Notes under the pieces: generated by a model
Database searches by the model: none
The model's input: only the letters and a program-made list of their open reading frames with translations
What the model was told of the DNA's origin: nothing
From: a virus
Virus record (IMG/VR): IMGVR_UViG_3300006750_000007
Span: 1 to 62,291 of that record
DNA length: 62,291 bases
Direction: 5' to 3' (one strand)
Part shown: piece after piece, positions 4,444-62,291 of the stretch
Layout: each line of letters starts with the position of its first letter
Position numbering within the stretch: the first letter of the stretch is position 1
Position numbers and translations under genes: made by a program

Positions 4444-4867
4444 TAAAGTATTCAGAGTAAGATTTCATTTGCAAGCAGGAGAGAACTTTGAAAAATGGCA
4501 AGTCAAAGATGAATTAAATAATATAAAGTTCTATGATCCTAAAGAGGTTACTCTAATAATGGAGAATTGTACTCTTAAGAATAGAAGAAAGATTGCACAG
4601 AAAATTAACAAAGGAGCTAATAAGACTGTATGTGCTTGGGTACAATGTACTAGAGTTACTCCTGTTAAACCAAGATACGATGAGTTAGGAATTATTGTTC
4701 ACTATAGTCCTCGTGAACATCCATTCTGGGAAACCAGAGGAAAGTGTTTAGATAACAAAGATTTTGGAGTATTAATTACTGAAGGAAAACTTGTAAAGGC
4801 TTTATTACCAAAACATATTAGAGATCAACATGAAGAAAAAAAAGCTGATAATACCATTATTCGATAA
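4430..4867 (+). CDS. Conserved hypothetical protein upstream of TerL (145 aa)
   Basis: This encodes a 145-residue basic soluble protein. Its pattern (RVRFHLQAGENFEKWQVK, then FYDPKEVTLIMENCTLKN, then KTVCAWVQC, then a HYSPREHPFW block) is one I recall as a conserved unannotated family in crAss-like and other Bacteroidetes phages. No function is known to me. It overlaps TerL by 38 bases, so the two are closely coupled and a packaging or head role is the natural inference. Confidence 0.7.
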   Translation: MEKNNKVFRVRFHLQAGENFEKWQVKDELNNIKFYDPKEVTLIMENCTLKNRRKIAQKINKGANKTVCAWVQCTRVTPVKPRYDELGIIVHYSPREHPFWETRGKCLDNKDFGVLITEGKLVKALLPKHIRDQHEEKKADNTIIR

Positions 4868-6878
4868 GGAGAAGTCATTTGATAAGCATGATAATTTTAG
4901 AGAAGCTGCCCTTCACTTTAAAGAGTTTGGTAGATATACTAATTATACTCCGAACGATCATCCTGGTTCTCAATATTACAAGTATTGGGAAGAAGAGCAT
5001 CGTCGTTGTATAGAAGGATTAAATTTAGGATGGGATTTTATATCAGGTTATAATTATTGGTATCTTAATTATTCTCCCATACAGGTAGTAGAAGCACTAG
5101 AAGAAGTTAGTGAAGATGGTAGAGTTGAGGGTAGAAGGTTTGAAGACTTTCCTGCGTTCTGGGATGGTGATTATTATTACTATCATTATTTAGAAGAAGC
5201 AGAAAATCGAGGTAAACATGGTTCTGTTTTAAAAACAAGGGGTAGAGGTTACTCATTTAAAGGTGGGTCAATGTTGACTCGTAATTATTTTCATATTCCT
5301 AAGTCTAAATCTTATGCAATGGCATCTGAAAAAGCTTATCTTAATGAAGATGGTCTTCTTACTAAAGCATGGGACATTATGGATTTTGTTGATGAACATA
5401 CTCCTTGGTCTAAACGTAGACATTTTGCTGATAGACAAATGCATAGAAGAGCTAGTTATTCAGAAACTACAGGAGGACTAAAAATAGAAAAAGGATACAA
5501 GTCAGAAATTATTGGAGTATCATTAAAAGATAATCCTGATAAAGCAAGGGGAAAAAGGGGTAAGCTAATACTTTGGGAGGAAGCAGGAAAGTTTCCTGGT
5601 CTACTTAAAGCCTGGCAAGTAGCACGGCCATCAATGGAACAAGGTAAAATTACTTTTGGTTTAATGATTGCGTTTGGTACAGGTGGTACAGAAGGGGCCA
5701 ACTTTGAAGCGCTAGAAGAAACATTTTATAATCCTAAAGGTTATAATATTCATCATATAGAAAATATTTGGGATAAAGGTAGAGAAGGAACACAGTGTGG
5801 ATTCTTTATGCCTACTCTTATGAACTATGAAGGATGTTATAATAAATACGGAAGGAGCGATCAAGACAAAGCAAAAGAATGGGAGGATAAAGAAAGAAAA
5901 CTAATTAAAGAGAATGCTCAAAATGCTAATGCTTATTCTCAACATGTAGCAGAGAATCCTTATACTCCTCAAGAAGCAGTGATGAGAACTGCAGGTTCTA
6001 TATTCCCAATTAGATATTTAAGAGAACATCTTACTGAAATAGAATCAGACACTAAGAAGTATATAGATACTTCATGGATTGGTAAGTTTGTAGTAGAAGC
6101 TACAACTGGTAAAGTTGATTGGAAACTGGACCCAGATGCTAGACCAATTACTGCATTTCCACTTACAGATTCAAACAATATTGATGGAGCTCCCGTTCTA
6201 TATGAAATGCCTTATAGAAATGCTGATGGAGATATTCCTTATGGAATGTACATAGCAGGATGTGATCCATACGATCATGATGAATCTCAAACAAACTCGT
6301 TAGGTTCGTTATTTATAATGAATGTTCTTAACGACAGGATAGTAGCTGAGTATACAGGGAGACCTTCCACGGCGGAAGAGTTTTATGAATTGTCACGTAG
6401 AATATTAATATATTTTAATGCTAGAATGAATTATGAGAATAACCTTAAAGGATTATTTACATATTTCAAGAATAAGAATGCAACTCACTTACTTACTGAT
6501 ACTCCTGAAGTGCTGGTAGACAAAGAAGTAATGACTACAACTATGTTGAACCGTAAGAAAGGTACACCTGGTACGGTAATGGTTAACAAATGGGGCCGAG
6601 AATTAATTAAGACTTGGTTACTAACTCCTTGTCCAGATAATCCAGACGTAATGAATTTACAAAAGATTCGTTCCATCCCACTACTAAAGGAGTTAATTTA
6701 TTGGAACAAGGAAGGTAACTTTGATAGAGTTTCTTCGTTAATCATGTTAATGATTCAAAAACAAGAAGTTGCACGAATAGATGTTCATAAAGAAAAAAAA
6801 ATAAAAACATTATCGCAAGATCCATTTTGGGATAGGCCATTTAAAACACAAAATAGCTATAATAAATGGAACTTATAA
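4830..6878 (+). CDS. terL: Terminase large subunit (682 aa)
   Basis: This is the packaging motor: an ATPase that pumps DNA through the portal, joined to an RNase H-like nuclease that cuts the concatemer. A Walker A-type loop is at about residues 136-146 (TRGRGYSFKGG), Walker B at 246-251 (LILWEE). The nuclease begins with the strand IAGCDPYD (Asp479) and ends with FDRVSS (Asp632). The RGRGxS-type loop and 680-residue length match crAss-like TerL proteins. The ATG at 4830 lies inside the upstream gene; no later in-frame start would give a better N-terminus. The portal gene follows after 45 bases. Confidence 0.95.
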   Translation: MKKKKLIIPLFDKEKSFDKHDNFREAALHFKEFGRYTNYTPNDHPGSQYYKYWEEEHRRCIEGLNLGWDFISGYNYWYLNYSPIQVVEALEEVSEDGRVEGRRFEDFPAFWDGDYYYYHYLEEAENRGKHGSVLKTRGRGYSFKGGSMLTRNYFHIPKSKSYAMASEKAYLNEDGLLTKAWDIMDFVDEHTPWSKRRHFADRQMHRRASYSETTGGLKIEKGYKSEIIGVSLKDNPDKARGKRGKLILWEEAGKFPGLLKAWQVARPSMEQGKITFGLMIAFGTGGTEGANFEALEETFYNPKGYNIHHIENIWDKGREGTQCGFFMPTLMNYEGCYNKYGRSDQDKAKEWEDKERKLIKENAQNANAYSQHVAENPYTPQEAVMRTAGSIFPIRYLREHLTEIESDTKKYIDTSWIGKFVVEATTGKVDWKLDPDARPITAFPLTDSNNIDGAPVLYEMPYRNADGDIPYGMYIAGCDPYDHDESQTNSLGSLFIMNVLNDRIVAEYTGRPSTAEEFYELSRRILIYFNARMNYENNLKGLFTYFKNKNATHLLTDTPEVLVDKEVMTTTMLNRKKGTPGTVMVNKWGRELIKTWLLTPCPDNPDVMNLQKIRSIPLLKELIYWNKEGNFDRVSSLIMLMIQKQEVARIDVHKEKKIKTLSQDPFWDRPFKTQNSYNKWNL

Positions 6879-10673: not shown

Positions 10674-12152
10674 ATGTTAATTTCACCACTACAAAAGTAT
10701 GAGCCAAAAGATTGGACTGGCCTTACTACCGAAAATCACTTAGGGGCATTGTTCGCAATAGAACCTCAATTAGTGACAAGTTTAATTGAAAATATCTACC
10801 AAGTAAATCTTGGCGATGATTTAATTAGCTTTATGAATCAATTTCCAGTTGAACATCTTGAAGATGACAGACCATATGAATGGATGTTACAAGGTGCAGA
10901 TGAGAAAAACTATCCGTTAGTTGCTTCTTATGCTGATTTCGACAAAAATGCTTTACCAGCGAATGCAGGTATTAACATTACAAGGTTTGTCTTAGAATTT
11001 CCTGAAAGAGGATTCGAAGCTACTGACGTTATTGTTGGTAACAAACCAGATCTATACAAGTTGAGAGTTGTTGCAGATCCTGTGCCTGCTGGAACTAACT
11101 ACTTATATATGGTTGAATTAGTAACAGGTGATAGCAACCTTTCAGTTCCTGCTGAAGATGTAGCTGCTGGTACTAAGTGGTCTAAAGAATATTCTTTAGT
11201 TGAACAAACACTTTCAACTAGAGGTGGACTTACAAGTCACACTTCTCCTTTCAGAATGCAGAATGTAATGTCTATGATTCGTAAGCAATACACTGTACCT
11301 GGAAACATGATCCGAAAAGGTAAGAATAAGCCATTGGCTTTCTCTTGGAAAGATCAAAGTGGTAAAACTCAAACTGCTTGGATTAATAAGTTAGATTATG
11401 ACTTTATGGTTCAATGTCGTAGAGAAATGGCTAGATTGTTAATGTTTGGAACATCTAACAAAAAAGCTGATGGTACTTATGGTAACGCTGGAGATTCTGG
11501 ATTCGAGATTCGTTCTGGAGCTGGTTTAAGAGAGCAAATTGCTCCTTCAAACAAATTCATGTACAACAACTTCGATCTTGATTACTTGACTGAAACATTG
11601 TTAGGTTTATCTGTAGGGAAATTACCTGAAGATAAGAGACGATTTGTATTAGGAACTGGAGAGTACGGAATGTATCAATTCCATAAAGCTGCTGAAGAAA
11701 AAGCTTCTAACTTTACTCCTAACTTTTCTCAAGATAGAATTTACAAGTCTGGAGAAAACAAAATGGGATACAGAGGTCAGTTCTTAGAGTATAAGACTGT
11801 AAACGGTATTACTGTTGAACTTATGCATGTACCTCAATATGATGATCCAGTTAGAAATAAATTGTATCACCCAGATGGAGGTTTAGCTGAATCTAGACGT
11901 TATACTATCATGGACTTCGGTACTGCCGATGGAGACGCAAATATCAAGCGTGTTGCTATGAAAGGAGATGAAGAAATCTTCAAGTATATCCCAGGTTTAA
12001 GAGATCCTTATTCTCCATACAACAACTTGACTAAACCAGGAATGGCGTCTACATCTGTTGATGGTTACGAAGTACACAAAGCGTACATCGGAGGAATAAT
12101 GGTTAAAAATCCAATGAGAATGGCGGAATATATTCCGAACATTTTAGCATAA
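10674..12152 (+). CDS. Major capsid protein (492 aa)
   Basis: This is the shell protein, by order (scaffold, then capsid), length near 490 residues as in crAss-like phages, and composition: many aromatic and glycine residues, a mixed alpha/beta sequence and no repeats. The N-terminal arm (about residues 1-60) precedes a helical spine region. It is expected to adopt the HK97 fold, which I infer from context. The gene ends at a strong intrinsic terminator (12164-12200), which would keep capsid mRNA more abundant than the genes beyond. Confidence 0.9.
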   Translation: MLISPLQKYEPKDWTGLTTENHLGALFAIEPQLVTSLIENIYQVNLGDDLISFMNQFPVEHLEDDRPYEWMLQGADEKNYPLVASYADFDKNALPANAGINITRFVLEFPERGFEATDVIVGNKPDLYKLRVVADPVPAGTNYLYMVELVTGDSNLSVPAEDVAAGTKWSKEYSLVEQTLSTRGGLTSHTSPFRMQNVMSMIRKQYTVPGNMIRKGKNKPLAFSWKDQSGKTQTAWINKLDYDFMVQCRREMARLLMFGTSNKKADGTYGNAGDSGFEIRSGAGLREQIAPSNKFMYNNFDLDYLTETLLGLSVGKLPEDKRRFVLGTGEYGMYQFHKAAEEKASNFTPNFSQDRIYKSGENKMGYRGQFLEYKTVNGITVELMHVPQYDDPVRNKLYHPDGGLAESRRYTIMDFGTADGDANIKRVAMKGDEEIFKYIPGLRDPYSPYNNLTKPGMASTSVDGYEVHKAYIGGIMVKNPMRMAEYIPNILA

Positions 12153-60410: not shown

Positions 60411-60620
60411 TTAAGGTAAATAAATTACAATATTCACTACTGTATATATTAATGATATAAGATTAAAGATAAGTGCAAAACTAAAGAGTAAGAAATTATC
60501 TCCAACAGCCTTTTCTAAAGCATCTTCAACATTATGTTTAATATTATATTTATATCTTTTATATATAATCCTATCTAATAAGAAAGTGATTATAAATACT
60601 AATACTGTTAATGTTATCAT
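60411..60620 (-). CDS. Small two-span membrane protein (69 aa)
   Basis: Two hydrophobic segments (about residues 1-16 and 47-68) flank a basic loop (RIIYKRYKYNIKHN). Its start overlaps the stop of the GH73-like gene by 4 bases (ATGA type), so translation is coupled to that secreted enzyme. The pair may work together at the envelope. Confidence 0.6.
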   Translation of the reverse strand: MITLTVLVFIITFLLDRIIYKRYKYNIKHNVEDALEKAVGDNFLLFSFALIFNLISLIYTVVNIVIYLP

Positions 60621-60973
60621 AATTTAATATTTTTAATTTTTTTAATATATTCAGGGTCTTTAGCATATCCTAAGTCTGTTAAGAACTTATAATAATCTCC
60701 TCCTTTATATTTATACTGTATTTTAGTTATATATGCATCACAGCTTTCTTTCCAGTTATCAAATATAAGATACTTGTGGTCATATCTAAGGCCAAATAAG
60801 TTATGTCTGGCTCTACAACTATAAGATTTAAAATGTCCTGTCTCTAATACAGCTTGTGCTGTTACTATTTTGGGGTATTCACATTTTATTTCTACTAAAT
60901 AGTCATATACTTCTTGTTTAGTTTGAGTAATACCAAAAATTGGAATTAATAATAATATTAATAAATTTTTCAT
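60617..60973 (-). CDS. Secreted GH73-like glucosaminidase (118 aa)
   Basis: The N-terminus (MKNLLILLLIPIFGITQ) is a clear signal peptide of the type seen in Bacteroidetes. The mature part has the glucosaminidase signature AQAVLETGHFKS (catalytic Glu44 in LETG) and RHNLFGLR, then YAYITKI-type and YA-Y repeats typical of GH73 lysozyme-like enzymes. At 118 residues it is short for the family but keeps the core. It would act on peptidoglycan in the periplasm and does not need a holin. It lies on the opposite strand from the lysis cassette, so it may be expressed early. Confidence 0.82.
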   Translation of the reverse strand: MKNLLILLLIPIFGITQTKQEVYDYLVEIKCEYPKIVTAQAVLETGHFKSYSCRARHNLFGLRYDHKYLIFDNWKESCDAYITKIQYKYKGGDYYKFLTDLGYAKDPEYIKKIKNIKL

Positions 60974-61446: not shown

Positions 61447-61489
61447 CTTTGTTTTGGTTTAGTGTGGTTTATTTCTTTGTTATATTTAA

Positions 61490-61723
61490 TCATTCACTTG
61501 GGTACATTGTATTATCAAAAGAATTAAGTAAAGTTTTAGCTAACTCAATAGTTTCTTCCTCTGTTAATTGTATGTAGCCATCAGAGTTGCTTACTGTTAA
61601 TTGCAACATCCTACCTTTTTCTGCACCACCCCAAAACCTTGTTAAACTCATAGTAGTTTCTATTCTTTCAGTGCTTAATTCTGATTCTTTTATTCCTTTT
61701 AATGTTTCTATGTGTGTACTCAT
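61490..61723 (-). CDS. Hypothetical protein (77 aa)
   Basis: The 77-residue protein has a beta-rich middle (ERIETTMSLTRFWGGAEKGRMLQLTV) and a C-terminal helix (LTEEETIELAKTLLNSF). This pattern recurs as a small conserved protein in phages of varied hosts, as I recall, without function. The 92-base gap upstream contains the palindromic site 1. Confidence 0.6.
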   Translation of the reverse strand: MSTHIETLKGIKESELSTERIETTMSLTRFWGGAEKGRMLQLTVSNSDGYIQLTEEETIELAKTLLNSFDNTMYPSE

Positions 61724-61759
61724 AATTTATAATTTTTTAAATCGTTCATAACTAAAATA

Positions 61760-61809
61760 TAACAACGTGTATAGCACATTAAAACGATGCCATACACAAT
61801 GCGTTAGCA
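61760..61809. repeat. Palindromic attC-like site 1
   Basis: The inner stem pairs GTGTAT (61767-61772) with ATACAC (61792-61797) and GCA with TGC (61774-61776/61788-61790). TAAC and GTTA pair outside. The loop CATTAAAACGA (61777-61787) is identical in site 2. It begins 6 bases beyond the stop of the ORF at 61816-62097. The geometry recalls integron attC sites, but the ends (TAACAACG and GCGTTAGCA) do not fit the classical core exactly. Confidence 0.6.
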
Positions 61810-61815
61810 TTAATA

Positions 61816-62097
61816 CTACGTCCATAGTGCTAATCTAATTTTCATCAACCTATTAAGCATTTCATTGTCTTCATCATCATTATCAAATGAATCATCATTT
61901 TTACGCTTAACCCACCATTTGTAAAGTAACCTTACTTCATCTACAAAGTCCTTGTATGCTTCATAATCGCAATGGGTGTCAACATTTTCTTTTTCAACGC
62001 AATCTTGTAATATCTGAAAACAAGCGTGTAGCATTATGTGGTCTCTATCAACCCATTGCTTTGCGTTTGGTAAGCTATCAATCTTTAGTATTCTCAT
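61816..62097 (-). CDS. Hypothetical protein, candidate cassette gene (93 aa)
   Basis: This is a 93-residue soluble acidic protein. Its first half (WVDRDHIMLHACFQILQDCVEKE) is a pattern I recall from short unannotated proteins in phages and bacterial mobile DNA. The middle has a WWVKRKNDD segment and an acidic DNDDEDNE run. It lies exactly between two palindromes that share a loop sequence, so the gene may be a mobile cassette. Function unknown. Confidence 0.6.
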   Translation of the reverse strand: MRILKIDSLPNAKQWVDRDHIMLHACFQILQDCVEKENVDTHCDYEAYKDFVDEVRLLYKWWVKRKNDDSFDNDDEDNEMLNRLMKIRLALWT

Positions 62098-62122
62098 AAT
62101 CTGTTTTTAAAATAATCCGTAC

Positions 62123-62177
62123 TAATGCTAACAATATGTAACAGCCATTAAAACGACCTGTTACACGGAGCATTATA
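62123..62177. repeat. Palindromic attC-like site 2
   Basis: Perfect stems TAATGCT/AGCATTA (62123-62129/62169-62175) and TGTAACAG/CTGTTACA (62137-62144/62158-62165) are separated by unequal bulges. The loop CATTAAAACGA (62146-62156) is the same as in site 1. The right arm overlaps the stop of the leftward ORF at 62173-62286, as in integron cassettes, where attC begins at or near the stop. Confidence 0.62.
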
Positions 62178-62286
62178 TGCAATTTTGCATTTTATCCTCC
62201 CAATATTTTTTTCTTTTATAATGATAATAACCAATAGGTGAAAAATGTATTCCATCTTCATCCCATTTAGTATTAGCATCCTCCAT
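62173..62286 (-). CDS. Small ORF at right edge (37 aa)
   Basis: The frame from ATG at 62286 gives 37 codons, rich in aromatic residues (FSPIGYYHYKRKKYWED). Its stop overlaps palindromic site 2. The start is only 5 bases from the window edge and an earlier start may exist beyond it, so this could be the end of a longer gene. Function unknown. Confidence 0.4.
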   Translation of the reverse strand: MEDANTKWDEDGIHFSPIGYYHYKRKKYWEDKMQNCI

Positions 62287-62291
62287 TATAA

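Follow-up and report, generated by a model that had tools for sequence, protein, structure and literature searches.

Putative integron-type gene cassettes at the right end of a crAss-like phage, with related arrays in jumbo phages

The right end of the phage record and its two hairpin sites

The DNA analysed here (the window) consists of one linear IMG/VR record, 62,291 bases long, and its crassvirus capsid protein and terminase matches (PF23898 and phrog_6681) satisfy membership of the Crassvirales. Its right end carries three leftward ORFs and two hairpin sites, whose coordinates are gathered in Table 1. By eye, the end of the outermost ORF (62174-62291, ..DGIHFSPIGYYHY..) looks like the C-terminus of an SGNH hydrolase and may belong to a third cassette. 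Further inside the window, a small ORF at 60617-60973 has a glucosaminidase domain (PF01832, E 1.9e-14) and is probably a lysis enzyme.

Table 1. Features of the window, with their strand and the basis of each reading
Feature	Position	Strand	Basis or remark
Terminase large subunit	4830..6878	+	phrog_6681, E 9.8e-138
Major capsid protein, crassvirus type	10674..12152	+	PF23898, E 8.9e-127; identifies the phage
End of colinearity with sister phage L355	61461..61479		Next to where the array of cassettes begins
Second cassette, beginning with GTTATATTTTAG at site 1 (61763-61752) and ending with TTAAATATAAC (61489-61479)	61479..61763	-	Sequence reading
77-aa ORF in the second cassette	61490..61723	-	Belongs to phrog_20881, a phage protein family without known function
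Site 1, attC-like hairpin, stem GTGTATgGCA / TGCTATACAC, loop TCGTTTTAATG (gene sense), both outer boxes intact	61752..61814	-	Covariance model R1
Body of the 93-codon cassette, private complementary ends GTTAGCATTAGTACGG (62132-62117) and TAGTATTAATGCTAAC (61818-61803)	61803..62132	-	
Cassette ORF, 93 aa	61816..62097	-	No Pfam or PHROG match; all-helical prediction of low confidence
Site 2, attC-like hairpin, stem CGTGTAACAGG / CTGTTACAT.., outer AACG box gone	62121..62183	-	Covariance model R1
C-terminal end of the third leftward ORF, which runs off the record edge	62174..62291	-	Sequence reading; stop codon at site 2

The initial annotation had described two palindromes with a common loop, CATTAAAACGA, on either side of the 93-codon ORF. 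Both are present, at about 61763-61809 and 62128-62175, with the leftward ORF between them, and the 11-base loop sequence has only these two copies in the whole record. On both strands the palindromes fold better than dinucleotide shuffles (z -2.6 to -3.7). The annotation had also placed them at the stop codons of leftward ORFs, and this holds for both: the TAG of the 93-aa ORF touches site 1, and the start of site 2 coincides with a TAA (about 62174-62176) closing the ORF that is open at the window edge. To score the sites, a covariance model (R1) was built from 27 other sites, excluding those of the window and their nearest kin. Site 1 reaches 65.3 bits (E 1.4e-11, 61814-61752; DNA fold z -3.25) and site 2 reaches 44.3 bits (E 5.7e-7, 62183-62121). 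The third-ranked match, at 16.8 bits, is a chance one, and R1 thus finds only two places in 62 kb. Since its seeds were selected for stems of at least 7 pairs, the covariation estimate is biased upward. The initial scan demanded the loop and GTTAGCA and not the stem, and the hairpin is present in most of its matches.

The sites have what is expected of attC, R'' and R' boxes around a self-complementary center, with TAAC and GTTA invariant and the stem variable. Both boxes are intact in site 1, while site 2 lacks one, which is a correction to the initial annotation: a 6-nt deletion has removed the outer box, leaving TGCTCCGTGTAACAGG where the related contig L105 has TGCTAACGCTCCGTGTAACAGG, the two sites being 97% identical over 65 nt. 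Because this crossover box is lost, the 93-codon cassette is probably now frozen on its outer side. The region has no match in Rfam, and site 1 has none among plasmids and a single convincing one among named phages, in Tenacibaculum phage JQ.

The half-site TGCTAAC/GTTAGCA, noted earlier as shared by the two palindromes, is real and represents both ends of one cassette. When the right 4.3 kb is searched blindly, it emerges as the sole complementary end pair of at least 10 nt, versus 0.10 expected, and these private ends (GTTAGCATTA / TAATGCTAAC) are complementary as in integron cassettes. The 93-aa ORF is without a match in Pfam, PHROG or named phages, and its structure prediction is of low confidence (pLDDT 66). 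Its relatives, 34-96% identical, are found in nine other viral contigs; the close ones (89-96%) lie in seven other contigs, five of which (L123-L127) share DNA homology that starts at 61802, at the box edge. A second cassette, with the 77-codon ORF, lies beside the first. Its ends share 9 complementary nt, and beyond its end there is plain phage sequence. As no hairpin is found there, the 61478/61479 junction is, on our analysis, a candidate for an attI-like or secondary insertion point, and an analogous hairpin-free junction exists at the attI of jumbo phages (see below).

A sister crAss-like phage, L355, is 97.6% identical to the window up to 61461 and different beyond. The homology stops 18 bases short of the second cassette, and L355 holds a different cassette with matching ends. 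This end-matched cassette (GTTATGTGCC / GGCACATAAC, positions 10537-10812 of L355) adjoins a double hairpin, TTCTACCACATTAAAACGTGGTCTAACAG..., which is also present in L095, where the next cassette differs. No tyrosine recombinase (PF00589) is detected in the window, nor is there one in the sister record G001 of 35 kb; both records are incomplete. For this reason the window array is described as CALIN-like. Its two R1 matches, 369 bp apart and without an integrase, satisfy the CALIN definition, with the site type judged by our own model. The records of the other contigs with GTGTAT-type sites are also without a recombinase, save for one weak PF00589 match under the cut-off.

Private ends and shuffling of cassettes across phages

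Cassettes of this site family start with GTTA-N5 and end with N5'-TAAC, the five bases being private to each cassette and mutually complementary. In a set of 79 cassettes from other contigs, a cassette's own two ends match at 5.28 of 9 positions; with shuffled ends the figure is 4.16 (sd 0.12), and within a physical site the halves agree at only 3.9. This private match is what the excision of a circle and its re-insertion at G^TT leaves behind. Complementarity between start and end, which defines an integron gene cassette, is thus satisfied by the 79 cassettes and by the window pair. Gene-strand stops are found at 204 of 274 distinct sites, as opposed to 38 for the opposite strand and 31 when positions are drawn at random. 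In 27 viral stretches the exact core of site 1 recurs with different genes around it, and cassettes that are 94-100% identical (up to 100% over 400 nt) occur with different neighbors. The integron-like cassette proposed from the window alone is therefore supported by its R-box ends, foldable center, gene ends at the sites and private complementary ends, and by arrays in one orientation. In addition, a single site core separates many different genes, and one gene (89-96% identical) is bounded by different sites.

The conserved loop was considered as the usual crossover point and rejected, the arms pairing within a site (10.5-10.9) and not across a cassette (7.2). A hairpin travels with its gene on the 5' side in five of nine pairs and on the 3' side in none of three, which is suggestive only. 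Pfam recognizes 12 families only among 91 cassette ORFs, including Mom, N6/N4 DNA methylase, MazG, endonuclease VII and 5'-3' exonuclease.

Several variants of the sites were also observed. Chimeric hairpins with arms of different stem types, sometimes exchanged between adjacent sites, are seen in L119, L279 and L298. In L007, L016, L039, L054, L076, L095 and L355, some sites have a second, small hairpin with the same loop, CATTAAAACG, immediately beyond one of their ends. Long sites of about 104 nt occur in arrays with short ones (L096 1163-1253, L110, G026-G036).

Arrays, recombinases and a candidate attI in jumbo phages and Bacteroidota

Large phage records carry arrays of the same site family beside a conserved recombinase. 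In L096, five short sites and a long one are followed by a 268-aa tyrosine recombinase, and around 78 relatives of this enzyme all 75 upstream sites are on the recombinase strand, with one site downstream. At each of 57 distinct jumbo-phage loci, the last cassette ends in TAAC; next comes a conserved sequence without a hairpin, TATTATATATAAACAAGTA, which immediately precedes the recombinase gene. The attI-like pattern AAC-TATTATATATA (AAC..TATAT) is present at all 57, its match being slightly off the junction in two. Judged by its sequence and position, the hairpin-free TATTATATATAAACAAGTA stretch is a candidate attI. The arrangement expected of an integron, an attI beside the integrase and the array start, is then satisfied in jumbo phages, with the window having a candidate junction only. 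A T4-type Gp23 capsid protein scores over its cut-off in 9 of 13 jumbo-phage records tested.

These loci bear on whether any site-specific recombinase is needed. Genes could instead change places passively, through homologous recombination between hairpins that recur in intergenic regions of phages or that serve as terminators. The hairpin cores are indeed near-identical within a lineage, homologous recombination could also make the few chimeras with arms from two types, and the crAss-like records lack a recombinase. Yet such passive exchange leaves unexplained the private complementarity of a cassette's two ends, the hairpin-free attI beside a conserved recombinase and the strict strand bias. 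Nor is there a typical T-run after the hairpins, which argues against a terminator role. We consider this explanation very unlikely and prefer site-specific recombination of integron type.

The jumbo-phage recombinase is not a classical IntI. It is best described as XerA-like, with 186 bits against NF040815, below the curated cut-offs; against the IntI family TIGR02249 it reaches 160 bits versus a cut-off of 265, with the match split in two, and an alignment with IntI1, IntI2 and the M16-3 IntI reveals that the IntI patch is absent. The genes of an integron are also expected to face away from attI and intI, and here they face the recombinase at all 75 upstream sites and in all 4 chromosomal cases described below. 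On the strand opposite to the genes, the order intI, attI, attC nevertheless has the canonical polarity, with the genes facing attI. Of the integron-type reading first proposed, the cassettes are retained, whereas the canonical IntI is replaced by a Xer-like, patch-less companion and the canonical gene direction is reversed.

A companion enzyme that resembles XerA, XerC and XerD could also indicate a Xer/dif-type (pdif) module, in which XerC/XerD sites flank a gene and are used in double-stranded form. In dif modules the sites are 28 bp long, nearly fixed in sequence and alternating in orientation. Each phage site is instead a hairpin about 63 nt long, whose self-complementary stem varies while its loop is fixed, and all sites are directly oriented; we regard a pdif module as extremely unlikely compared with an integron.

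As the initial annotation advised, the sites were sought in Bacteroidota genomes. Of 150 Flavobacteriales genomes, 32 have R1 matches, and 147 Pelagibacterales genomes have none. This site distribution makes exchange with a host cassette pool plausible. All 10 site-bearing genomes checked have tyrosine recombinases matching the family alignment, and in 4 of the 10 a site lies 1-9 kb from a patch-less recombinase, with the genes facing it each time. These four Flavobacteriales chromosomes are G137:C32, G088:C5, G140:C1 and G052:C3; the recombinase frame is interrupted by a stop in G088:C5 and G052:C3. Since the evidence for private ends is only weak in the chromosomal regions near recombinases, a chromosomal version of the system is suggested and not shown.

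Among the matches listed, which were evenly sampled, the best plasmid relative of the jumbo-phage recombinase is a XerD-like gene beside tet(X3), 49% identical over 222 aa (L380 2543-4713, Acinetobacter plasmid NZ_CP104336.1). A hairpin ending in GTTATGTGCC lies between this gene and tet(X3), and a long attC-like stretch comes after tet(X3). R1 has no match in the tet(X3) region of L380, and the link is made by eye and by the recombinase only.

The remaining alternative is an ordinary CALIN, that is, canonical attC cassettes captured by a standard Bacteroidota IntI of the host without any separate system. CALINs are known from virulent phages, including a Polaribacter phage, P12002L, that has this site family, and IntI1 is able to act on one of its attC sites (Qi et al., 2023, PMC9892861). 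R1 finds sites of 62.4 and 52.1 bits in P12002L, between methyltransferase genes and in the same region as the published calls, which were made with HattCI/INFERNAL. In that work it was attC2 that recombined with attI1 through IntI1 (PMC9892861). The site family has thus probably already been tried with IntI1, with the reservation that which P12002L site is attC2 is not established. Against an ordinary CALIN, no IntI over the TIGR02249 cut-off is found in any of nine site-bearing Bacteroidota genomes; patch-less recombinases occur near sites in 4 of 10 genomes and beside the jumbo-phage arrays; and the gene orientation is reversed. We judge it unlikely, and retain a system with its own Xer-like recombinase.

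Proposed mechanism and comparison with known systems

We hold it highly probable that the gene cassettes at the right end of this crAss-like phage are of integron type and move in the following way. A cassette consists of one small gene with private complementary ends (GTTA-N5 ... N5'-TAAC) and an associated attC-like hairpin. A tyrosine recombinase would fold a single strand of the site and cleave it within the G^TTA box, the cutting point and single-strand intermediate being inferred. Cassettes would then be excised as circles and re-inserted at attI or at another attC, a recombination that is also inferred, and the crAss-like phage may have received its own in trans, from the enzyme of a Bacteroidota host or of a co-infecting phage. 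Established at the sequence level are the sites, the arrays, the private ends, the shuffling between phages, and the presence in jumbo phages of an attI and a recombinase beside arrays. Neither circles of excised cassettes nor empty sites nor recombination products have been seen. With somewhat less assurance, we think it likely that Bacteroidota and their phages share an unrecognized integron lineage with patch-less Xer-like recombinases, in which jumbo phages have the complete system and smaller phages, including crAss-like ones, carry cassettes.

Taken together, the jumbo-phage arrays and the crAss-like cassettes point to an unrecognized gene-swapping system of Bacteroidota and their viruses. 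Integrons are described as rare in this phylum, and in Bacteroidetes proper IntegronFinder 2.0 reported a single complete one, in Salinibacter ruber (PMC9024848). If patch-less recombinases run arrays there, standard searches requiring IntI would miss such integrons. An integron of its own would give a phage a dedicated route for trading small genes, including the Mom-type and methyltransferase genes by which DNA is guarded against restriction.

attC sites and CALINs in virulent phages have already been reported (Qi et al., 2023, PMC9892861), and those of the window resemble them in their attC-like sites, R boxes, foldable center and lack of an integrase, the site family itself being present in P12002L. 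That study does not report the fixed loop, the reversed gene orientation or crAss-like phages, nor Bacteroidota jumbo phages that have a recombinase and an attI of their own. In the literature searched, which leaves out preprints and subscription journals, we found no description of such complete integrons in Bacteroidota jumbo phages or of cassettes in crAss-like phages, and the patch-less phage integron appears to be new. The Xer recombinases (XerA/XerC/XerD, NF040815, TIGR02224/02225) are the best-scoring class for the jumbo-phage enzyme and have the short C-terminal layout in common with it, but it scores under their curated cut-offs and is located at cassette arrays rather than dif.

A similar case is aph(3')-IVb of Riemerella anatipestifer, a Flavobacteriaceae gene whose 3' flank has an attC-like fold and which was inserted although no homology flanks it, by a mechanism not fully elucidated (PMC13148043). 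The authors name no recombinase (PMC13148043), and the likeness is drawn without a sequence comparison. The same Xer-like system could explain homology-independent gene capture in Flavobacteriaceae and, if so, would provide a testable recombinase for the Riemerella insertion (PMC13148043).

Another close model is the canonical integron. Both have a recombinase beside a hairpin-free attI, an array of hairpin sites, private complementary ends and small diverse cargo, and the polarity of attC and attI is canonical on the strand opposite to the genes. The phage version differs in that its recombinase lacks the IntI patch, its genes face attI and the recombinase, and the loop sequence of its sites is conserved across lineages.
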